Shown here in pieces: positions 36,355 through 49,046 of a stretch of DNA of 53,645 nucleotides. The stretch is from positions 1 to 53,645 of the IMG/VR virus record IMGVR_UViG_3300048033_000859; one strand, 5' to 3'. This DNA comes from a virus. The notes below the pieces were generated by a model, which saw only the letters and a program-made list of their open reading frames with translations, was not told the origin of the DNA and did not search any database. The position numbers were made by a program, and so were the translations under genes. Every line of letters begins with the position of its first letter. The first letter of the stretch is position 1.

Positions 36355-38223
36355 TTAGTATCCAAATATTGAGTCACTAGGAGTGTACCCTTTATTAAAA
36401 TCTGTACCCATTTCTTCAAATATGGACTTAGACCTTGGGCGAGACATAATAGCGTACCTTACGGAGTCATACGCATGGTCACTCTTGTATCGGCTGTCGA
36501 TATCATCGCTTCCTTTTGGGTCACTAGGAATTGTAGGCAAATCAGATATAATTTGTCGGCAGGTATCAAAAAATACTATCCCAGACAGTTCTGTAGTCTG
36601 ATCCACTTTTAACAATTCATGTAAGCGGTTTTTACCTGCAATTCGTGATCCAGCCGACCTATCGGAGGGCTTCCACCGACAACCTTGTGAGATCATTTCT
36701 TCTGCGATTGAGGGTCCCAATTGACCCCGTACATGCCAACAAGAAGAGTCCAGTATTCCGTAGGAAATATTCTCACCTTGTTCCGCGTCAAGTACAGCTT
36801 TAGCTAAATCCCGACCTGTATGCTTGCTGACGTATAACTCTCTGTAACATATCAGAGTTTCATAGGCGGGGTCAATAGCAAACCAATGAACTGCACTAAA
36901 ACTAGAGTACCCGTAATCGCACGATCTAAACCTCCTCCAATCAGGGGGGATAGTAAAGGGCTCCACAACATGATCTTTTAGTCTAAACTCAGAAAATGCG
37001 GCCCCATCGGCAACATTCCAATCACCTTCTAATAACTGCCGCCGTTGTGTTTCAGGGAGTGCTAGGAGGTTGGCTTCATACTGCCCATCTGCGTTAAGGT
37101 ATGGGTTATCTTTAAGTGAGGCAGGTATGAATTTTCGGTAGAATAGGGGTTGCCCTGCTTTTTCATGCCCCTCTGGGTATACTAAAGTTTCACCAGTTTC
37201 TAGGTCTGTGGCGGGGAACGCCTTGTTAGGCGGTGAGGGGTCAATATAGAGCTTGCGAACCCATTGATGGCCTGGCCCACCAGGATTTGTAGTGGCACGA
37301 ATAAAAATAGGAAGCGTAGGATCAGTGGTTCTCAAGCGACTGCGCATGTAGGATAACGCGAAGCTTGTGGGGTGTTGAGTCAGTTCATCGAAGCCTATGT
37401 AGCTAAAGGCTTGTCCTTGATACCTGAGTACATCTTCATCGCGTTCTAGGTAGGTTAACCATAGACGCGCACCCGATGGAAATACCCACTGAGACTTGCG
37501 TTCTTGCCACTTAGCGCCCTTGAAAGCTTTTGGGTAAAGCTCTTGGCACTTCCAGATGATTTCACGAAGTTCATCGGTGGTACGCCGTAGTATTAACCCA
37601 TTGAAATTAGGGTTAGAAAAGTACCTCATGGGGTCTGCGATCAGGGCCATAGTTTTTCCACCGCCCGCGCTCCCGCCATATAGGACTTCACGCTCTGATG
37701 CGGCGAGAAAATCTGTTTGTGGCCCTTGATTGGGTTTAAACAGAACCTCTTCATTGTCGGCGTCATTGGCGGCAGAGAAGTCGAGGGTATCTGAGAAGCT
37801 AGACTCTGGCTCTTCTTTTATTTTTTCTTTTACTTTATTTTCTGCCATGGTCAGTCTGCGTCTTGCTTGTGACAACCGCTGGCGAAGAGCCGCTTCTTCT
37901 TTTTCTTCTTTAGTCTTAGGTTTCCGCTTTCGCTTATCCTTATCTAGCTTCTTAATTCGATCTGTTTTGTTGGCACCCTGACGATGCTCTTTCCAAATCT
38001 TAGACAGACCTTGATGGGATATTTTGCGTCCCACCTTATCAGTTACCCACTCTGCAGTTTGGCGAAGGGAATGCCCTCCATCCAAATAGGTAAAGGCTTC
38101 CTCCATGAAAGGAGTTACCTGATCGTCTGGTACGAGAACTAAAGGATCGTCCTCGCAGGGCTTGTACCCATACGCTACTCTTGCAGTGGCGTTGGGCCGT
38201 ACCTTATTCTTCCATTGTGTCAT
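36355..38223 (-). CDS. terL: Terminase large subunit with N-terminal recombinase-like extension
   Basis: 622 residues. The ATPase is clear: Walker A GGSAGGGKT (residues 183-191), Walker B SYIGFDEL, coupling motif ATTNPGGPGHQW. The nuclease domain has CDYGYSSFSAVHWF and later acidic residues. About 150 residues precede the ATPase. Residues 14-80 (RVAYGYKPCEDDPLVLVPDD, then GGHSLRQTAEWVTDK, then SHQGLSKIWKEH) resemble the DNA-binding 'recombinase' domain of serine integrases, followed by a very basic segment (KKLDKDKRKRKPKTKEEKEE). The extension may bind DNA at the packaging site; this is inference. Confidence 0.92.
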   Translation of the reverse strand: MTQWKNKVRPNATARVAYGYKPCEDDPLVLVPDDQVTPFMEEAFTYLDGGHSLRQTAEWVTDKVGRKISHQGLSKIWKEHRQGANKTDRIKKLDKDKRKRKPKTKEEKEEAALRQRLSQARRRLTMAENKVKEKIKEEPESSFSDTLDFSAANDADNEEVLFKPNQGPQTDFLAASEREVLYGGSAGGGKTMALIADPMRYFSNPNFNGLILRRTTDELREIIWKCQELYPKAFKGAKWQERKSQWVFPSGARLWLTYLERDEDVLRYQGQAFSYIGFDELTQHPTSFALSYMRSRLRTTDPTLPIFIRATTNPGGPGHQWVRKLYIDPSPPNKAFPATDLETGETLVYPEGHEKAGQPLFYRKFIPASLKDNPYLNADGQYEANLLALPETQRRQLLEGDWNVADGAAFSEFRLKDHVVEPFTIPPDWRRFRSCDYGYSSFSAVHWFAIDPAYETLICYRELYVSKHTGRDLAKAVLDAEQGENISYGILDSSCWHVRGQLGPSIAEEMISQGCRWKPSDRSAGSRIAGKNRLHELLKVDQTTELSGIVFFDTCRQIISDLPTIPSDPKGSDDIDSRYKSDHAYDSVRYAIMSRPRSKSIFEEMGTDFNKGYTPSDSIFGY

Positions 38224-41671: not shown

Positions 41672-42082
41672 CTATATATACAGAGACAGTCTTTCCTTTA
41701 CCTCGCCATACGGAACATCAAGTCGATAGGCGAGTAGCCTGATAGCATCAGATACCGTTGCATCTTGTTTAAGACGATTAGCCCTCTGAGAGATCACCCG
41801 AACATTTCCCTTAATATAACCTTTGGTAGGATTAATCCTGTCAAGGGATGGACTATTATTGCTCCCACCCTGCCCCTTCTTGAAGTAATCAATTGGGGTA
41901 TTCATCACAGGGCAGTTTAAGGGGAAGGGGGATAGGTCATCGACTTCAAGATCGAATTCTATCCCCTCCTGTTTTGATTTGTTCTGGACTACCGATAGGG
42001 TCTGTCTGAACTTTAATCTGCAATACGCATCAAATAGTTCAGGTACGTTAAGGTGAGTGAGTTCATCTGGATCATACTGCAT
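41672..42082 (-). CDS. HNH-like endonuclease
   Basis: 136 residues from ATG 42082, chosen because GAGGGTG lies 6 bases upstream; two further in-frame ATGs lie up to 42097. The C-terminal half carries SPSLDRINPTKGYIKGNVRV and ISQRANRLKQDAT, the LDRI...GY..GNV...S.RAN pattern of a phage HNH-type nuclease family. FPLNCPVMNTPIDYF precedes it. The role could be DNA processing or homing. It overlaps the upstream gene by 11 bases. Confidence 0.68.
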   Translation of the reverse strand: MQYDPDELTHLNVPELFDAYCRLKFRQTLSVVQNKSKQEGIEFDLEVDDLSPFPLNCPVMNTPIDYFKKGQGGSNNSPSLDRINPTKGYIKGNVRVISQRANRLKQDATVSDAIRLLAYRLDVPYGEVKERLSLYI

Positions 42083-42416
42083 CGCCATCACCCTCAAAGA
42101 AGCGCATCAGGTGGTCTTTACCGTTGACGTAGTCTTCTTGGAGTTCTGCAGCCTTTAATACACGCTTAGAAGCTTCTGAAAGGGCATGCCCCATAGTGTA
42201 CAGAGAGCTATATCCCTCGTACCCTAAGTCATCACGGCAAGTCTCTATTGCGGAATCTAGTAATTCCCCAAAAGGTACTGCCACGACATTAGCATCGTCC
42301 TCATCTATGGGAGTATAAGTGAAACAAGAGATGGTTAGGATACCATCCTGGTCTACTTCTAGTTCATGTTCGATGTCCAACTCAAAGTCGAACCGTATTG
42401 TTTCTGTGTTCGTCAT
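42072..42416 (-). CDS. Unknown acidic protein, first gene of the late/leftward main block
   Basis: 114 residues from ATG 42416; a TTG start at 42449 is also possible. Acidic, with a beta-rich N terminus (IRFDFELDIEHELEVDQDG, then ILTISCFTYTPIDEDDANVV) and a helical C terminus. It lies about 60-90 bases downstream of a consensus -35 promoter. No family is known. Confidence 0.62.
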   Translation of the reverse strand: MTNTETIRFDFELDIEHELEVDQDGILTISCFTYTPIDEDDANVVAVPFGELLDSAIETCRDDLGYEGYSSLYTMGHALSEASKRVLKAAELQEDYVNGKDHLMRFFEGDGDAV

Positions 42417-42505: not shown

Positions 42506-43102
42506 CTCTTAGGGGTACTATTACAACCCCTATTACGTTTACAATCTCCACGGGACCCCTATTCTAGCCATACTACGGAGTTTACATACTAATTAATTCT
42601 GGTCCGTATCCCCCCATGCTAACCCTAGGCGGTTTACTGTCCAATTTTCCTTATTTTGTGCATAGACTGTATACGATATCGTACCCCACCCCCCATGGCG
42701 CTTGGCCCCCCCGATTTCTTTCGAGCATTGCTAACCTTCTGATTTTATTAGGGTAATTATCTTAGGAAAGATACGAGAGAGGGAAAATCTTCAGGGAATT
42801 TATAGAGAAAAGAAATGAAAGAGAATTTCTGCAGGTTTATCAAAGAATTAACCCTGTGAAACTCATAACTTTTTGGTAACAGAATAAGAAAAAAGGGCAG
42901 AGATTTTGCGTGTGACAGAAAATTTAAGTCGTGTGGTGCCGCATGGCGATGCACTCTATTAAACCTGAGATATCTCTAGGACTAATCTACAGGGATAACT
43001 AGGGGGGGTTTAACTCTTTAGGCCACTACCCTAGCCAAACTACAGGGGCTAGCTTGTGTGGCCCTCTCTCTGGTCTATCGGCGCGGGATATAACAGGGCA
43101 AT
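42506..43102. other. Gene-free region (about 600 bp)
   Basis: No convincing gene on either strand. It contains a 10-base palindrome (ACGATATCGT, about 42672-42681), several long C runs (about 42612-42718), and a purine-rich, A-rich + strand segment (about 42770-42840). It lies between the accessory cassettes and the late block. Candidates are a replication origin, a packaging site or a control region; I cannot decide between them. Confidence 0.6.
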
Positions 43103-43117
43103 AAAAAAGACCCCCAA
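43087..43117 (-). promoter_or_regulatory. Possible promoter overlapping the 43.1 kb terminator
   Basis: Leftward TTGGGG, 19-base spacer, TATATC. The -35 is part of the terminator stem, as in two other places of the island. Downstream lies only the gene-free region, so function is uncertain. Confidence 0.35.
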
Positions 43118-43128
43118 GAGAGGGGGCC
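43103..43128 (-). terminator. Terminator ending the accessory island
   Basis: Leftward CCCCC-loop-GGGGG followed by TCTTTTTTAT. It is almost the same sequence as the terminators at 44.76 and 46.31 kb. Confidence 0.85.
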
Positions 43129-43151
43129 TAGATATTGTTAAGGGGGAGAGT

Positions 43152-43352
43152 TTAGAAGGGACCGTATGCAAGCCACAGGGCTTTATCAGGGTAATGGTCA
43201 CAGTCTCCAATTGCGTATTCGTAATAGATGTTAGGGTGTCTCTCTGAGATTGCTTTTCTAGCTGCATCATTACAATTAAACACCCTGTTATCTACTACGG
43301 TCCAAGGGTAGCTTGTATCGAATGACGCTCTAAATTTTAAGAAATAAGACAT
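43152..43352 (-). CDS. Unknown small protein, accessory island
   Basis: 66 residues, aromatic-rich (YFLKFRASFDTSYPWTVVDN, then YYEYAIGDCDHYPDKALWLA). Its ATG overlaps the upstream stop (TAATG) and a terminator follows. Family unknown. The many aromatic and acidic residues are in keeping with small anti-defence proteins, but that is only a suggestion. Confidence 0.6.
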   Translation of the reverse strand: MSYFLKFRASFDTSYPWTVVDNRVFNCNDAARKAISERHPNIYYEYAIGDCDHYPDKALWLAYGPF

Positions 43353-43636
43353 TAGGCCACCTCTGCAGTCGAGAGCTTTTTAATTAGCTCTATGGTCTCT
43401 CTGGCCCGTCCTAATCTGTAACGGGAAGTTGATATCTCACTTGTTAGCCTATCCCTTTCCTTTTTTAATTCGTGGACGGTGTTTAGCTCTTGTTTGAGGC
43501 ATGCAATAAGAATGTGAATATCTTTGCATGTTTCTACCATCCCATCCTTGTGCAGATCAGCGGCAATCAAATGCATCAATTCTATTTGAGCCCAAGGGTC
43601 TAGTTCTTGGGCGGTGTTTTGATTTTCGGTATTCAT
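43352..43636 (-). CDS. Coiled coil protein, accessory island
   Basis: 94 residues. N-terminal DPWAQIELMHLIAADLHKDG, then a long helix ELNTVHELKKERDRLTSEIS likely to form a coiled coil. It has the shared island leader immediately upstream of the ATG. Unknown function. Confidence 0.65.
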   Translation of the reverse strand: MNTENQNTAQELDPWAQIELMHLIAADLHKDGMVETCKDIHILIACLKQELNTVHELKKERDRLTSEISTSRYRLGRARETIELIKKLSTAEVA

Positions 43637-43665
43637 TTTGTGGTATCCTTTTAAGTTAGTGAAGG
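43637..43665 (-). repeat. Island leader, copy 1
   Basis: Leftward TTCACTAACTTAAAAGGATACCACAAA directly before the ATG at 43636. It contains the Shine-Dalgarno AAAGGAT. The same block precedes four other genes of the island. Confidence 0.85.
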
Positions 43666-43687
43666 GGGACCGTAGCCCCCCGATTGA

Positions 43688-43978
43688 TTATTTGCCTAGT
43701 CTCCAATCATGCTGGACTGCCATGATTTTAGGGGAACTGTGGTCCTCTACGTTAACGAAAACGAATCCCCTATCAGTTGCCCCCATTCGCCACATTCCAA
43801 GCCAATCTAGACGGTCTAAGAGCTTTTGGGCTGCATAGGTATGGTTACCCTCTACGTTTAAACTATCGTCCCAAGTTGTGGTATAAGTTGACCCCTTGTG
43901 ACCGCTGGAAGTCATGGCCTTGACCCTTGGGCCTTTTGTATCTGTAGGGCCTAGATATTTTGTGAGGATAGTTTGCAT
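43688..43978 (-). CDS. Small protein of a family common on phages and plasmids
   Basis: 96 residues. N terminus MQTILTKYLGPTDTKGPRVK matches a frequently seen pattern (T-x-Y-L-x-x-T-[DN]-x-x-G-x-R-[IV]-K) on plasmids and phages, followed by TWDDSLNVEGNHTYAAQKLL with a pairing of His and Ala-rich helix. The function is unknown; such genes often lie in anti-restriction regions as I recall. It follows the 82-residue gene with no gap. Confidence 0.65.
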   Translation of the reverse strand: MQTILTKYLGPTDTKGPRVKAMTSSGHKGSTYTTTWDDSLNVEGNHTYAAQKLLDRLDWLGMWRMGATDRGFVFVNVEDHSSPKIMAVQHDWRLGK

Positions 43979-44227
43979 CTATTTGCCCCCCGATGTTTTC
44001 ACAGATTGATAATTCTTGTCCCAAATTTTATCCAAATAAAAATGATAGTGGGCACGGGAAACTGTGATTGTGCGATGCTTCATAGTTCTTTGATAGGGGG
44101 TCCCATCACTCTTATATGTTTGAGGGTATTCAGGGCGGGGAGCTTCTAGCGTCAAAGTATATTTGCCGCTGTCAGTTTTACCTACGGCAGAGACTGCCCA
44201 GATATTAGGGTTGAAAAGTTTCTGCAT
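43979..44227 (-). CDS. Unknown small protein, accessory island
   Basis: 82 residues, beta-rich and basic (IWAVSAVGKTDSGKYTLTLE, then MKHRTITVSRAHYHFYLDKI). The ATG directly abuts the upstream stop (TAAATG), so it is co-translated with the 59-residue membrane protein. Not recognised. Confidence 0.6.
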   Translation of the reverse strand: MQKLFNPNIWAVSAVGKTDSGKYTLTLEAPRPEYPQTYKSDGTPYQRTMKHRTITVSRAHYHFYLDKIWDKNYQSVKTSGGK

Positions 44228-44407
44228 TTATACACCCCCCGCCAAAAAATCACCGAGCTTGCACGATAACCATGGGCCAAAGAATAGCCCTAGGACAAGC
44301 CCAGAGGCCCCGAGAGCAGAGTTGATAGACCAGAAGGCCCAACAGATTAGAAAGGGGCTCGATACTGTTAGCAGAGCAGAAAATATGGAAATGATTAAAA
44401 GTTTCAT
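44228..44407 (-). CDS. Two-helix membrane microprotein (59 aa)
   Basis: 59 residues, hydrophobic: MKLLIISIFSALLTVSSPFL, then ICWAFWSINSALGASGLVLG and LFFGPWLSCKLGDFLAGGV. It has the shared island leader immediately upstream and is coupled to the next gene, which makes it a real gene despite its size. The function could be membrane-associated defence evasion or superinfection exclusion; unproven. Confidence 0.7.
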   Translation of the reverse strand: MKLLIISIFSALLTVSSPFLICWAFWSINSALGASGLVLGLFFGPWLSCKLGDFLAGGV

Positions 44408-44436
44408 AGTGTGGTATCCTTTTAAGGTTAGTGAAG
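44408..44436 (-). repeat. Island leader, copy 2
   Basis: Leftward CTTCACTAACCTTAAAAGG then ATACCACACT, directly before the ATG at 44407. Confidence 0.85.
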
Positions 44437-44460
44437 CCCCCCTTGCGGGGGGCCTAGGGT

Positions 44461-44679
44461 TTAAAATCCGTTAGAGGTCTTTTCTTCTAGTTCCAGTGCA
44501 TCAGATAACCAATCTATCACACGCTCCCACTGTCTAGGGAGGTCAGTTAAAGAGATATCAAAACCAGCGGCAAGAATTTCACCCTCTAAGAATATCATCT
44601 TATCTGCGCCAATTTGAGCGTACTGGTCTGCTAGTGATTTAGTTGCTAGTTTTTCAATTTCTGATTTAGTAATTTTCAT
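44461..44679 (-). CDS. Unknown small acidic protein, accessory island
   Basis: 72 residues from ATG 44679, chosen because the island leader sits just upstream; a longer frame reads through the leader. Helical, acidic (KITKSEIEKLATKSLADQYA, then RVIDWLSDALELEEKTSNGF). Unknown function. Confidence 0.65.
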   Translation of the reverse strand: MKITKSEIEKLATKSLADQYAQIGADKMIFLEGEILAAGFDISLTDLPRQWERVIDWLSDALELEEKTSNGF

Positions 44680-44708
44680 AGTGTGGTATCCTTTCGGGGT
44701 TATAGTGT
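44680..44708 (-). repeat. Island leader, copy 3 (diverged)
   Basis: Leftward AACCCCGAAAGGATACCACACT before the ATG at 44679. The Shine-Dalgarno and ATACCACACT part is kept, and the upstream CACTAACC part has changed. Confidence 0.7.
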
Positions 44709-44728
44709 AGCCCCAAGCTAATAGGTTA

Positions 44729-44744
44729 CTTGTAAATTTACAAG
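44729..44744. promoter_or_regulatory. Perfect 16-base palindrome
   Basis: CTTGTAAATTTACAAG lies between a possible promoter and the copy 3 leader. It is a good candidate for an operator. Confidence 0.5.
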
Positions 44745-44746
44745 AG

Positions 44747-44776
44747 AAAATATTTAGCACAAAAAAAGACCCCCAA
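44747..44776 (-). promoter_or_regulatory. Promoter overlapping the 44.76 kb terminator
   Basis: Leftward TTGGGG, 18-base spacer, TATTTT. The -35 box is formed by the 3' side of the terminator loop and stem. Confidence 0.45.
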
Positions 44777-44785
44777 AAGGGGGCC
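44761..44785 (-). terminator. Island terminator 2
   Basis: Leftward GGCCCCC-TTTT-GGGGGTC followed by seven T. It ends the unit containing the DUF932 gene. Confidence 0.85.
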
Positions 44786-44807
44786 TAATATTTTAAATCT
44801 ACGGGGA

Positions 44808-45137
44808 TTATTCTTTTGTTTCTATACAGACCACAACGGGAATGGCCTCTTTGTCACCTTTAAAGAATAGCAGATAATCCCCTGCGCTTGCTTTTTCCTT
44901 TAGTCCAGAAATCCACATGCGCTTCTCTTTTTTACTCTTGGGCCTGTACAGTTTCAAAGTTGTGGTGGTGGCATGCTTGCCTAGCTCCAGAATGCACTTG
45001 AATTCAACCCCATGCTTTCCACCTTGGGGGATATCTGCAAAATTCACATTTAAGAATTCCCCGAAAGTTTTTTCAAAGGCCCCAGCGTTTAGGGTGGAAT
45101 GCGAAAGGTGGGTTTTTGTAAGTTTAATTTTTAGCAT
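44808..45137 (-). CDS. Accessory island protein, possibly EcoRII-N-like DNA-binding fold
   Basis: 109 residues from ATG 45137. The central part LKLYRPKSKKEKRMWISGL and ASAGDYLLFFKGDKEAIPVV is reminiscent of the EcoRII N-terminal (B3-like) DNA-recognition domain, but the likeness is weak. It lies downstream of DUF932 and the 35-residue membrane protein in one unit and is followed by a terminator. It could be an anti-restriction or DNA-binding factor. Confidence 0.55.
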   Translation of the reverse strand: MLKIKLTKTHLSHSTLNAGAFEKTFGEFLNVNFADIPQGGKHGVEFKCILELGKHATTTTLKLYRPKSKKEKRMWISGLKEKASAGDYLLFFKGDKEAIPVVVCIETKE

Positions 45138-45138
45138 T

Positions 45139-45246
45139 TTAGTACCCCATTCCATAACCGATAAACAAGAAAATCCATCCCGCTGCAAAAAGGGAGAGCG
45201 CGCCAAGCGCATCCCCCAGTATCTCCACAATTTTGCGCCAATCCAT
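45139..45246 (-). CDS. Single-helix membrane microprotein (35 aa)
   Basis: MDWRKIVEILGDALGALSLF then AAGWIFLFIGYGMGY. It starts in a TAATG overlap with the DUF932 gene and ends one base before the next ATG. I recall similar small 'DW(K/R)' membrane proteins ending in GYG(L/M)G in mobile elements. Coupling on both sides argues it is real. Confidence 0.65.
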   Translation of the reverse strand: MDWRKIVEILGDALGALSLFAAGWIFLFIGYGMGY

Positions 45247-46223
45247 TACGCTGCAATCCCTGTTAGGGAAGCCCAAGCGGGGCTTGCTAGCCAATCGCTA
45301 ACTTGATTTTGGCGGCGGTCCAGAGTTTGGGCCACATTGTCTTTCTGCTCACCTCTGGCATGCACGGGAAATAGCTCGCTGTCATGACTTGAAAAGTGGG
45401 TGAGACAGCTATGCAAGCCCCAAACTGTGAACCCTCTGCTCTGGGCCTCTATATCCAGTTGCTCCATAAATTTTGCAGTGAGGCGGCTAGCAATTCCCAT
45501 GCCCTCCAGAGTTTCTTGGGCTTGGGCTGGGGTTATCTTGGCTTGAGCCCATGCATTCCACACTTCGATTTTGCTTTCATATTTTTTCACCTGCTCTTTA
45601 ATGAAAGGAATGAAATACTCTGGGGTGTAACCTGAAGTATGGCGGCGCGATGATTTACCCCCAAGGATATCTAGGACCATGCCATTGTCACAAGCTAAGT
45701 CTGTCACAAGTGAACGGATAATCACAGGGGACTTGCCGCCGAAAGAGTTAGTGACCCCAAAGCCTAGATTTAAGAGGGTGTTTTCTCCCCCGTTCCACAA
45801 CTTGGAATAGCCTGTATTCTTTACAAGCTGACGGATTTCCTTGCCGCTATCGGCAAAGCGAACGGAAAAGCTTGTGAAAGCTCCCCCGTGGGATTGTTTT
45901 TCGTCCAGCTTTATTTCTGCCAAATATTCTTTGGGAAGGGCGCTTTCGCATGCCTCTTGCAATACATCCCGCAAGTCTGAATTTTGTGCGATTGCATAGC
46001 CAGCCCCACAATCCCCTAGCCATTCTTGGGTATCATCCCGAAAGATAGGACGTTTTTGCCATGGCTTAATGAGCGTGGGGGTATTTTCTGGAGTGGTCAA
46101 CATTGCATACTGTCCAAACTTAGCTTGCCAGTTTAAAGCATCCAACTGGGGGAAGCTCTGGGCCTCTGGGGCGGTAGTTTCTGGAGTAGTTGCAAAAGCA
46201 TTCGGGAAAGTAACGATATTCAT
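45246..46223 (-). CDS. DUF932 family protein
   Basis: 325 residues. The pattern (RPIFRDDTQEWLGDCGAGYA, then KNTGYSKLWNGGENTLLNLG, then VTDLACDNGMVL) matches the DUF932 phage/plasmid family, cellular examples of which (for instance YfjQ) lie beside anti-restriction genes in prophage regions. The biochemical function is unknown. It has the island leader and a likely promoter upstream and heads a unit of three coupled genes. Confidence 0.75.
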   Translation of the reverse strand: MNIVTFPNAFATTPETTAPEAQSFPQLDALNWQAKFGQYAMLTTPENTPTLIKPWQKRPIFRDDTQEWLGDCGAGYAIAQNSDLRDVLQEACESALPKEYLAEIKLDEKQSHGGAFTSFSVRFADSGKEIRQLVKNTGYSKLWNGGENTLLNLGFGVTNSFGGKSPVIIRSLVTDLACDNGMVLDILGGKSSRRHTSGYTPEYFIPFIKEQVKKYESKIEVWNAWAQAKITPAQAQETLEGMGIASRLTAKFMEQLDIEAQSRGFTVWGLHSCLTHFSSHDSELFPVHARGEQKDNVAQTLDRRQNQVSDWLASPAWASLTGIAA

Positions 46224-46250
46224 AATTGGTATCCTTTTGAGTTAGTGAAA
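46224..46250 (-). repeat. Island leader, copy 4
   Basis: Leftward TTTCACTAACTCAAAAGG then ATACCAATT, directly before the ATG at 46223. Confidence 0.85.
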
Positions 46251-46296
46251 AGAGCTAGACCACCTAGCTAGTGGTTATGATGTTACCCCTTGTGAA

Positions 46297-46326
46297 ATTA
46301 TAACGCAAGAAAAAAAAGACCCCCAA
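46297..46326 (-). promoter_or_regulatory. Promoter overlapping island terminator 3
   Basis: Leftward TTGGGG, 18-base spacer, TATAAT. The -10 is consensus. The -35 is built from the terminator loop/stem. Confidence 0.55.
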
Positions 46327-46337
46327 CAAAGGGGGCC
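46310..46337 (-). terminator. Island terminator 3
   Basis: Leftward GGCCCCC-TTTGTT-GGGGGTC followed by eight T. It ends the DUF7227-like unit. Confidence 0.85.
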
Positions 46338-46343
46338 TAATAT

Positions 46344-46424
46344 TTATGTAGTATATTTGAGAACTAGCCACATCACACCGAGCCAAAATGTGAAGTAACC
46401 ACAGAAAAGATAAATTATTTTCAT
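46344..46424 (-). CDS. Membrane microprotein (26 aa)
   Basis: MKIIYLFCGYFTFWLGVMWL then VLKYTT: one hydrophobic helix. The start overlaps the upstream stop (ATGA) and a terminator follows 7 bases after its stop. Translational coupling and the tight fit between gene and terminator suggest a real product. Confidence 0.5.
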   Translation of the reverse strand: MKIIYLFCGYFTFWLGVMWLVLKYTT

Positions 46425-47227
46425 CGGGGAGCACTCGCCACGGCGTCAGCTTTTTTGACGCTAATCCCATGGGCGGGAAAACCCACAATAGTCTCTCTCT
46501 TATATATGCTGCATAAACCACAGTCCTTGCAATTTGTGTCCATATAAGTTGCGGGGCAAATTGTCAGCTTGTGGCCCATCGGGGTTACAGTTGGTTTTCT
46601 CTTTTTATAATCTGCCAAGCTTTCCCCGTCCTGAATTCCCATTTTTTCAGGCAATACAGTTGCAAGAGGAATGCTAGGAAACTTACTTTTTGCGGGGCTG
46701 GCCTCCCAATTATAATATACAATCTCTGCCAATTCATCGGCATGGTCTAACCCGTTACATGAGGCGTTAATAGTTAGGCCATTCAAGTTTGCATCCATTA
46801 CAGCGTTAAAATTGTGTGTGTCTTCTATACTATAATGCGTGAACCCAAAGCCCCGCTTTCCTTTGTTAGCCTCTACTAATTCAGAGAGGGCCACAGGGTC
46901 TATTTGTTCATCATTACATTCTGCAATATTTGGCGGTAAATCCCCAACTTGATTTAATCGCCACAACTGGCCCTCTTTAATTGATAAGACAGCCCCTAGA
47001 AATGCAAGCCAAGTCCCCCCAGCTTTCCCTGCAGAAACTTTATCCCAAAATCTACGGATGTGGCCCCCGTCCCCGTAGCATCCATTTTTTTTAAATAGGC
47101 AACTATTGGGACAAGTCCCATTGTGGGAAGTTGACACAGGTATAGGCCCTGTCTTTCTGTTTCTACTTTTCATAGTCAAAGCGAAAAAACCTGTGACATT
47201 AGCGACAAAATTAATTTCATGTTTCAT
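46421..47227 (-). CDS. Cys-rich phage protein (DUF7227/GP88-like)
   Basis: 268 residues. The N-terminal part carries KTGPIPVSTSHNGTCPNSCL and KKNGCYGDGGH, the three-Cys pattern of the GP88/DUF7227 phage family. More Cys occur at the C terminus: ICPATYMDTNCKDCGLCSIY, suggesting a metal or iron-sulphur site. The function is not known. It is the first gene of the accessory island with the shared leader and its own promoter, and is followed by a coupled 26-residue membrane protein. Confidence 0.72.
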   Translation of the reverse strand: MKHEINFVANVTGFFALTMKSRNRKTGPIPVSTSHNGTCPNSCLFKKNGCYGDGGHIRRFWDKVSAGKAGGTWLAFLGAVLSIKEGQLWRLNQVGDLPPNIAECNDEQIDPVALSELVEANKGKRGFGFTHYSIEDTHNFNAVMDANLNGLTINASCNGLDHADELAEIVYYNWEASPAKSKFPSIPLATVLPEKMGIQDGESLADYKKRKPTVTPMGHKLTICPATYMDTNCKDCGLCSIYKRETIVGFPAHGISVKKADAVASAPR

Positions 47228-47254
47228 TGTGTGGTATCCTTTTAGGTTAGTGAA
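47228..47254 (-). repeat. Island leader, copy 5
   Basis: Leftward TTCACTAACCTAAAAGG then ATACCACACA, directly before the ATG at 47227. Confidence 0.85.
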
Positions 47255-47407: not shown

Positions 47408-47440
47408 GTTATATATTACTCTTGACGCGCCAGTAGCTAA
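47408..47440. repeat. Direct repeat flanking the 67-residue gene, left copy
   Basis: GTTATAT, then CTTGACGCGCCAGTA at 47421-47435. The core ACGCGCCAGTA also occurs after the gene. Confidence 0.75.
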
Positions 47441-47672: not shown

Positions 47673-47699
47673 GTTATATCTTAACGCGCCAGTAATTAG
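47673..47699. repeat. Direct repeat flanking the 67-residue gene, right copy
   Basis: GTTATAT followed by CTTAACGCGCCAGTA. The core is identical over 11 bases to the copy 259 bases to the left. Confidence 0.75.
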
Positions 47700-47933: not shown

Positions 47934-49046
47934 ATGGGAAATATGTTAGCACCGTACATTCAAGTGTACAAAAAGAAGGGGAAATCTGAGTACAGGTTTC
48001 AACCAAAGAAAGACATGCGGATAGCCTTGGGAGTGCATGGATTTACAATGCATGATGAACAAGAGGCTCTAGCGTATAGCGCAACCGTTCAACAACTGTA
48101 TTACGACTACAGTCGCAAGAAAAAGAACGCTATTGCGATCAACGAAAGGACTTTGTCTGGCCTTGTTCATTGGTTTTATCAGACCAGTGAGTTCAAAGAG
48201 CGTAAGCCTAACACGCAGAAGAGCTATAAGGAGCAGCTAGGTCTGATATGTAAGGTCACCCTGCCGCGCAGTAAGACCCCTCTAGGTGCTTTGATGGTAT
48301 CCACGATGGATCGGGAGAGGGCTGACGCTTTAAAACAGTTCTTGACAGAGCACTACTCATATCACCGAGCTTATATGTGCATAAAGACAATTCGTCGGTT
48401 GTTCTACGTTGGCAGCGTTTATGGGAAGGGCATCAAGTTTAACCCGTTTGCAAAGATGGACCTGAAAACACCCGCTAGTCGCAAGGAACGCTGGGAGCAG
48501 GGCGACATCTATCGTTTTATAGATAAGTCTGACGAACTAGGGTTTCACGGTTTAGGTACACTAGCTCTAGCTTGTTATGATTTAGCTCAGAGGCCTGGAG
48601 ATATACGCCAACTGACTTGGGAAAATGTTGTAGGCAATCGATTGATCTTCACCCAAGAGAAGACCGAGCAGCCTATGAATGTTGTTATGAGCGACGAACT
48701 AGTAAAACGCTTATCAACAATCAAACGTGTCAACAGTACCAACAGGATTGTGTACCATGTAGACCCACGAAATAAAAAAATCTGTGAGTATGATAACAGA
48801 AATTACAATTGCCACCGCAAGTTAGTTTTAGAGGCACTGAACCTCCCAGAGAAATTACAACTACGGGACCTTCGTAGAACTGCAGCGTCCGAGATGGCTA
48901 ACGCTTCTTGCACCGATGATGAAATCCGAGAGGTCACTGGACACAAGACCCGTGACGTTCTGTCTATCTACCTAGTTCAAGATGGAACTGCAGGGGACAA
49001 CGCCCAAGATAAACGGAGGCAGAAGTATGGACAAAAAGGTGCCTAG
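47934..49046 (+). CDS. int: Tyrosine integrase
   Basis: 370 residues from ATG 47934, 6 bases after GGAGGA. Catalytic marks are CYDLAQRPGDIRQLTW (first Arg), LRDLRRTAASEMANA (second Arg; the usual His of HxxR is Arg here), VTGHKT (His) and SIYLV (Tyr nucleophile). It recombines the phage attachment site with a host tRNA gene. The attP core lies about 0.85 kb downstream, after thyX. It is transcribed from an operator-bearing promoter. Confidence 0.9.
   Translation: MGNMLAPYIQVYKKKGKSEYRFQPKKDMRIALGVHGFTMHDEQEALAYSATVQQLYYDYSRKKKNAIAINERTLSGLVHWFYQTSEFKERKPNTQKSYKEQLGLICKVTLPRSKTPLGALMVSTMDRERADALKQFLTEHYSYHRAYMCIKTIRRLFYVGSVYGKGIKFNPFAKMDLKTPASRKERWEQGDIYRFIDKSDELGFHGLGTLALACYDLAQRPGDIRQLTWENVVGNRLIFTQEKTEQPMNVVMSDELVKRLSTIKRVNSTNRIVYHVDPRNKKICEYDNRNYNCHRKLVLEALNLPEKLQLRDLRRTAASEMANASCTDDEIREVTGHKTRDVLSIYLVQDGTAGDNAQDKRRQKYGQKGA

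Follow-up and report, generated by a model that had tools for sequence, protein, structure and literature searches.

The virus record IMGVR_UViG_3300048033_000859, analysed here over its full 53,645 bases (hereafter the window; its final 40 bases are found again at position 142), carries a leftward accessory island in which one short leader is repeated directly before start codons. Related phages keep this punctuation at the same place while the genes behind it turn over. In the best reading, which we regard as probable, the leaders are start-associated translation elements that act together with boundary RNAs to give each cassette its own messenger RNA (mRNA). Judged by terminase matches and gene order, the window, a marine bacteriophage, is of the HMO-2011 type and belongs to the CRP-3 subgroup, near roseophages CRP-3, CRP-212, CRP-235 and CRP-738: its terminase is 67–70% identical to its best matches in CRP-235, CRP-738, CRP-212 and CRP-3, and its gene order matches the same four records. 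The island lies between the integrase with a rightward replication block and a leftward structural block that contains the terminase.

The 11-mer AAAGGATACCA occurs five times in the whole record, each time directly 5′ of the ATG of an island gene (minus-strand ATGs at 47227, 46223, 44679, 44407 and 43636), against a mean of 0.045 copies and a maximum of two in 200 order-2 Markov genomes. The genes behind these copies encode 268, 325, 72, 59 and 94 amino acids (aa), respectively, and run leftward at 43.3–47.2 kb. A longer form, TTCACTAAC(n)AAAAGGATACCA, has four copies in the record, all within the island, and a pattern search of the whole record found no leader before core genes. The complete leader spans ~27 nucleotides (nt) and is built as TTCACTAAC, 1–3 nt, AAAAGGATACCACA and ATG:

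Leader 1 (TTCACTAACCTAAAAGGATACCACACA): 47228..47254, minus strand, before the DUF7227/GP88-like gene (sequence, pattern search)
Leader 2: 46224..46249, minus strand, before the DUF932-like gene (sequence, pattern search)
Leader 3, variant CACTATAACCCCGAAAGGATACCACACT: 44680..44707, minus strand, before the 72-aa gene (sequence)
Leader 4: 44408..44435, minus strand, before the 59-aa gene (sequence, pattern search)
Leader 5: 43637..43663, minus strand, before the 94-aa gene (sequence, pattern search)

These leaders are divided by a second set of repeated elements. Three near-copy terminators, which have the stem AGGCCCCC-loop-GGGGGTCTTTTTT in common, end units after the 26-aa, 109-aa and 66-aa genes, and terminator-like sites in the region number 23 against 6.5 in shuffled sequence. 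The five leaders and three terminators are on the minus strand at the place where the original prediction had put them, and that observation is not only confirmed but wider than reported. Two more boundaries, overlooked at the time, are plain hairpins that lack a T-run, one touching the leader of the 59-aa gene and the other that of the 94-aa gene.

Intrinsic terminator 1: 46309..46338 (stem-loop 46338-46317), minus strand, 8-bp stem and T-run
Intrinsic terminator 2: 44761..44786 (stem-loop 44786-44767), minus strand, near copy of terminator 1
Intrinsic terminator 3: 43103..43129 (stem-loop 43129-43108), minus strand, near copy of terminators 1 and 2
Hairpin AGGCCCCCC-gcaa-GGGGGGCTT: 44434..44455, minus strand, touches leader 4, no T-run (z 2.6, P 0.05)
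Hairpin GGGGGGC-tacg-GTCCCCC: 43664..43681, minus strand, directly before leader 5, no T-run (z 2.3, P 0.04)
Short hairpin AGCTAGG-tgg-TCTAGCT: 46253..46269, minus strand, just before leader 2, weak (P 0.09)

Sub-threshold Rfam matches in the window, such as RAGATH-8 and Phe_leader, were rejected.

Ordinary host-type ribosome sites and terminators that are alike by chance would explain the computed pairing between the AAAGGA core and the 16S rRNA end, but five copies where 0.045 are expected, their absence from core genes and the same architecture with a different consensus in relatives already disfavour this explanation, and we regard it as very improbable. Pairing energies of the Shine–Dalgarno (SD) motif in the five window leaders (-6.0, -6.0, -9.6, -6.0 and -6.0 kcal/mol) are only average beside those of 39 other genes (-6.84 ± 2.37 kcal/mol); the wider energy set of 91 leader rows from all phages contains repeats from two loci of one contig. 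The CTAAC and ACCA flanks, conserved outside the SD pairing, therefore need another role, for which an initiation enhancer or a binding site would be candidates. Both in the window and in relatives, the leader stands at a fixed distance from the ATG and always in sense orientation, which argues for recognition as RNA rather than DNA. A promoter role was rejected, as the CTAAC block lacks a -35 partner (hairpins of varying sequence occupy that position) and the region has no excess of sigma-70-like promoters. Bacterial genome contigs gave 15 single scattered matches to the leader, none titled Rhodobacterales, which we took as chance in a search run without a shuffle control. In viral contigs a looser window-type pattern matched at least 120 stretches among the matches listed, mostly without the upstream block, and these were likewise judged to be chance; L063, the sole exact leader match in a separate search, has no ATG behind the leader and was set aside.

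The islands of the four cultured relatives occupy the same place, each with its own repeated leader: CTAACTTGGAGA-(ACTGACCA) in CRP-3, TCTAACTGGAG-(TAATGACCA) in CRP-212, TAAACTT-AAAAGGAAATGACCAA in CRP-235 and a looser (A)AGGACCAATCA form in CRP-738. Across whole genomes, CTAACTTGGAGA, TCTAACTGGAG and AAAAGGAAATGACCA have three copies each in CRP-3, CRP-212 and CRP-235, respectively, all on the minus strand and in the island only, so that in these three phages, as in the window, leaders were not seen before core genes; CRP-738 is less specific, with two of the three words tried recurring once or twice outside. A de novo scan that used no prior pattern (10-mers found in common before three or more ATGs spaced 100 bases apart) returned sets in 23 of 146 sources against none of 146 order-2 Markov-simulated sources; CRP-13, one of the 23, and three rows each from CRP-3 and L127 proved to be coding repeats. 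With 9-mers, sets also appeared in L099, L163 (the same contig as L125), L166, L167, L168 and L174. The general form across relatives is hairpin, CTAA(A)C, SD, (TG)ACCA and ATG. The leader consensus set drops the CRP-3 coding rows of >400 aa, L127 rows with GGAGCAAGCTG, rows failing the SD or upstream filters, near-duplicate starts and repeated proteins, and includes three CRP-738 leaders missed by the scan and added by eye; similarity within genomes in this filtered set is selection-biased and is not used as evidence.

Behind this constant punctuation, gene content turns over. Among the five complete phages (phmmer, E 1e-3), DUF932 is found in all five, four families are common to CRP-3 and CRP-212 only, and every other island family occurs in a single phage, with family hidden Markov models (HMMs) additionally connecting the window's GP88-like gene with that of CRP-235. 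The original prediction had expected leaders and terminators to be kept in related phages while gene content varies, and the comparison bears this out: constant content was not seen, though DUF932 is constant. CRP-1 and HMO-2011 (50,000 of 55,282 bases) have DUF932 homologues in another gene arrangement and without the leader. The nearest relative, contig L005, has 73–74% DNA identity to the window over most of the structural block and 68% at its island-side end. It carries one window-type leader (AAAAGGATACCACGCT-ATG) before an unrelated 101-aa gene, followed by genes of 158 and 92 aa, and this trio sits between two terminators alike mutually and to those of the window, where the contig stops. 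No homologue of these three genes was seen in the island proteins used for comparison.

Leaders also change together within a phage. We compared leaders of DUF932 and GP88-like genes chosen by homology, with starts set by an SD rule, which avoids selection bias, and retained phages whose DUF932 proteins are <85% identical (13, or 12 without HMO-2011). In the 12 phages, mean leader similarity was 0.703 within a phage, compared with 0.584 (DUF932), 0.555 (GP88) and 0.567 (crossed pairs) between phages; the excess of within-phage over orthologue similarity had a permutation P of 2e-5, the floor of 50,000 shuffles, and each of the 12 phages lay above its own orthologue mean. Including HMO-2011 gave 0.685 within phages and 0.568, 0.535 and 0.550 for DUF932, GP88 and crossed pairs. 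Of the excess of 0.136 that was observed, letter composition accounts for 0.007 ± 0.014. Since leaders of non-homologous genes in one phage are more alike than leaders of orthologues, leaders evolve in concert, a pattern that fits leader recombination and fits just as well a trans-acting factor common to them, or copying under selection.

Two further explanations draw on these results. The original prediction saw the leaders and terminators as recombination seams, with genes swapped between short repeats; in such a model, gene conversion would keep the leaders alike. Content turnover behind constant punctuation and homogenised leaders within genomes agree with it, as do a 96-aa island gene common to CRP-5, a phage of another family (Zobellviridae), at 75% DNA identity, and the presence of a Cas4-type exonuclease and an endonuclease/resolvase-like protein. 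However, a leader of ~27 bases offers little length for recombination, a scan of ten core proteins revealed no annealing recombinase, the 96-aa gene itself has no leader in the window, and constant placement and direction relative to the ATG would not be needed for recombination alone; we consider this model unlikely. Alternatively, the leaders could be binding sites of a phage RNA- or DNA-binding regulator that switches the whole island and co-evolves with them. Conserved positions outside the SD motif, a phage-specific consensus and concerted change would all follow, but no candidate regulator was found and leaders that always lie in sense next to an ATG are unlike DNA operators, making this explanation quite unlikely.

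The boundary RNAs of relatives bear on how cassettes may be separated. The best stems before 87 of 88 leaders had a mean z of 1.72, compared with 0.48 at 261 control open reading frame (ORF) starts, chance ORFs included, and 42 of the 87 reached P ≤ 0.05. Rfam type II hammerheads (RF02276) lie directly before leaders in CRP-212, CRP-3 and contigs L137, L098 and L148. Matches in L137 (38.8 bits), CRP-212 (38.4), CRP-3 (37.2) and L098 (39.7) pass the curated threshold of 37 bits, and four other copies fall below it (32.1–35.8 bits). A complete-core search (CUGANGA, GAAA, an NUH site and stems I–III) adds L124, L133 and L152 as well as extra copies in L098 and L148; each has GUC and a stem II of at least 3 pairs. 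Weaker core rows in HMO-2011 and L009, with other sites and a stem II of 0 or 1 pair, were not counted. Up to three type II hammerheads stand between accessory genes beside the integrase in several relatives. Across 14 copies, 22 cells changed on both sides of a pair compared with 4.7 in shuffles, and sliding abolished the signal. Cleavage is predicted to leave an upstream product ending at GUC and a downstream product in which the hairpin of stem I comes first and the leader next. The CRP-212 hammerhead (L073:3090-3165) is also 78.5% identical to an unannotated stretch in the Streptomyces phages Celia, Urza, VieEnRose and Itza.

At the same site, twelve contigs, several of them near copies (L080, L084, L087, L091, L092, L094, L127, L134, L150, L166, L167 and L168), carry an irregular stem built of stem A (6 pairs), a 2x2 loop, stem B (4 pairs), an internal loop and stem C (8 pairs). 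Compensatory changes occur in stem A (AAGAUU/AAUCUU, UAAUCU/AGAUUA, UAAUGU/ACAUUG) and stem B (AGCC/GGCU, AACC/GGUU, AGCU/AGCU), and in 8 of 8 elements tabulated a downstream hairpin overlaps strands A′ and B′ and so excludes stems A and B. A scan of five loci gave no Rfam family match at E 0.5. In a covariance search of 100 sources, the model reached beyond close relatives to L134 (47 bits) and L168 (27.5 bits); its training sequences are bound to match, and echoes on the plus strand coinciding with other matches were left uncounted. We regard the irregular stem as a candidate new structured RNA. A bolder idea is that boundaries are interchangeable RNA-cutting or RNA-ending devices that all feed one leader type, with the irregular stem a new self-cleaving or switch RNA in place of the hammerhead; we hold this to be doubtful.

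In the reading we prefer, of start-associated translation leaders combined with boundary RNAs, a cassette would consist of a boundary RNA element, the leader and one to three genes. Read as RNA, the leader would serve translation initiation through its SD motif and the two flanks conserved beyond ribosome pairing. The boundary element (a terminator or hairpin in the window; a hammerhead or irregular stem in relatives) would part the mRNAs of neighbouring cassettes and leave a hairpin at or near the mRNA 5′ end, ahead of the leader. Any gene landing behind such a unit would have standard start signals and independent expression, so that genes could come and go while the punctuation persists. 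That the island is expressed early is a guess from its position opposite the integrase.

Several results weigh against this reading. Neither a type II hammerhead (Rfam RF02276 at E ≤ 10; complete-core search) nor the irregular stem (covariance model, best 11 bits) was found in the window, and mRNA processing therefore rests on the relatives and the plain hairpins. Of the 87 leaders, 45 have no significant upstream hairpin (P > 0.05). The leader of the 72-aa gene diverges in its upstream part (CACTATAACCCCG), and sigma-70-like promoters in the region number 7 compared with 9.8 in shuffles, the sigma-70 consensus being the only one scored. Concerted evolution is weaker under a longest-ORF start rule (0.592 within phages, compared with 0.511 and 0.484; 9 of 13 phages above their orthologue mean, P 1.8e-4) and under a median-length rule (0.559 within, P 5e-4), which misplaces several starts, the window's among them.

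The genes of the island and its flanking landmarks are as follows:

268-aa DUF7227/GP88-like protein: 46421..47227, minus strand (Pfam PF23872, E 8e-69; PHROG 2554, E 1.9e-44)
26-aa hydrophobic microprotein: 46344..46424, minus strand, starting across the stop codon of the 268-aa gene (read by hand)
325-aa DUF932-like protein: 45246..46223, minus strand, sole island gene found in all five complete phages
35-aa hydrophobic microprotein: 45139..45246, minus strand (read by hand, translated)
109-aa protein: 44808..45137, minus strand, no family
72-aa protein: 44461..44679, minus strand, no family
59-aa hydrophobic protein: 44228..44407, minus strand
82-aa protein: 43979..44227, minus strand, without its own leader
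96-aa protein, PHROG 3199: 43688..43978, minus strand, without leader; homologues in CRP-5 and CRP-13 75% identical
94-aa protein: 43352..43636, minus strand, only weak sub-cut-off matches
66-aa protein: 43152..43352, minus strand, overlaps the end of the 94-aa gene
Terminase large subunit: 36355..38223, minus strand, landmark and basis for placing the phage
Tyrosine integrase: 47934..49046, plus strand, landmark, divergent from the island

Six of the 11 island genes, including the two microproteins, lack a leader of their own, and each follows closely behind another gene. The DUF932 label given originally is supported by homologues and fold, although the window protein scores only 18.8 bits against Pfam PF06067, below the cut-off of 23; in DUF932 family group A2, five of five members match Pfam at E ≤ 0.01 (best E 1.2e-24). 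Its structure model, with a mean predicted local distance difference test (pLDDT) score of 74, matches viral DUF932 proteins in fold and nothing in the PDB at E 0.001 (Z at most 4.5), and we accordingly assign it no function and claim no new fold. The model of the GP88-like protein (mean pLDDT 38) was not used, and a GP88 search of viral contigs turned up no confirmed relative. Pfam, PHROGs and NCBIfam returned no functional annotation for island proteins, leaving the suggested anti-defence or host-takeover content unsupported. The 96-aa protein had been called plasmid-common, yet it matches 18 phage records and none of 72,556 plasmid records, and a plasmid origin was therefore rejected. Its 75% protein identity to the CRP-5 and CRP-13 homologues indicates that single-gene exchange between roseobacter phages does occur.

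Three observations concern the island's surroundings. At the boundary between island and late genes lies a noncoding block (42592-42750) that matches RAGATH-8 weakly (19.3 bits, where the cut-off is 86.7) and whose stretch GTATACG ... GTACCCC was seen by eye at the equivalent place in CRP-3, CRP-212, CRP-235, CRP-738 and L005. An endonuclease-like protein is encoded at 41672-42097, with PHROG matches to endonuclease families first and then to the Srd anti-sigma factor (E 1.5e-6). A TTGACGCGCCAGTA / TTAACGCGCCAGTA repeat was noted by eye at 47422-47435 and 47681-47694, in the divergent stretch next to the integrase; CRP-3 and CRP-235 have similar words at the ends of their records, and these repeats could be promoter, arm or att sites.

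The arrangement turns the question of how phages reserve space for exchangeable accessory genes into something concrete that can be tested: standard start signals and boundary RNAs would let new genes work at once. Because the group has cultured members (CRP-3, CRP-212, CRP-235 and CRP-738), RNA 5′ ends and ribosome occupancy are measurable, and the repeated leader provides a simple handle for finding accessory genes in uncultured marine phages.

Mobile PeSL cassettes of T4-type phages combine an early promoter with a stem-loop, are repeated between variable genes and are thought to aid shuffling. Unlike PeSLs, which carry a promoter, the island repeat is a start-codon leader in a region with no excess of sigma-70-like promoters. 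Morons are accessory genes with their own promoters and terminators in a variable site; the island resembles them in its terminators and variable site, but differs in that many cassettes share one leader consensus.

In the literature on this phage group, the accessible part of the HMO-2011 paper (PMC9038755) makes no mention of ribozyme, hammerhead, intergenic, leader or DUF932, and ribozyme and hammerhead likewise go unmentioned in that of the CRP-3 paper (PMC6918029). A full-text search found no paper combining hammerhead ribozymes with roseophages, though its partial coverage does not establish absence in print.

Closer parallels are the start-associated sequences (SAS) and extended SAS (ESAS) described from mycobacteriophages of Cluster K (PMC3203893) and Microbacterium phages of Cluster EF (PMC7302621). 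Like the island leaders, these are repeated asymmetric motifs at the ribosome-binding position of many gene families, in one orientation, with bases conserved beyond the SD pairing and often a further element just upstream; both lie outside structural genes (stated for Cluster K; here in the window, CRP-3, CRP-212 and CRP-235). Unlike SAS, island leaders occur in phages near alphaproteobacterial roseophages, and they differ between phages and change in concert, whereas the 13-bp SAS is common across Cluster K. Neither the Cluster K consensus GGGATAGGAGCCC nor the Cluster EF consensus GGGAAAGGACCCC is among the island leaders. The upstream element of the island varies in sequence while a hairpin is kept, whereas Pope et al. 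found little support for an ESAS RNA hairpin; ESAS are imperfect 17-bp inverted repeats whose consensus is specific to each genome, whereas upstream hairpins here differ within one phage. Some phages of the island group do repeat an upstream block.

The boundary RNAs have their own precedent in the tandem prophage hammerheads of Perreault et al. 2011 (PMC3088659), proposed to process transcripts into single-gene mRNAs, with cleavage seen in vitro and in E. coli. Those arrays stand around prophage genes, and the islands of several relatives likewise place type II hammerheads between accessory genes, although the window has none; the accessible text of PMC3088659 mentions neither a link between ribozyme and leader nor the ribozyme's site being taken over by terminators or a different structured RNA. 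The cassettes described here join two observations that were known but unexplained: the start-associated sequences and the hammerhead arrays of prophages.

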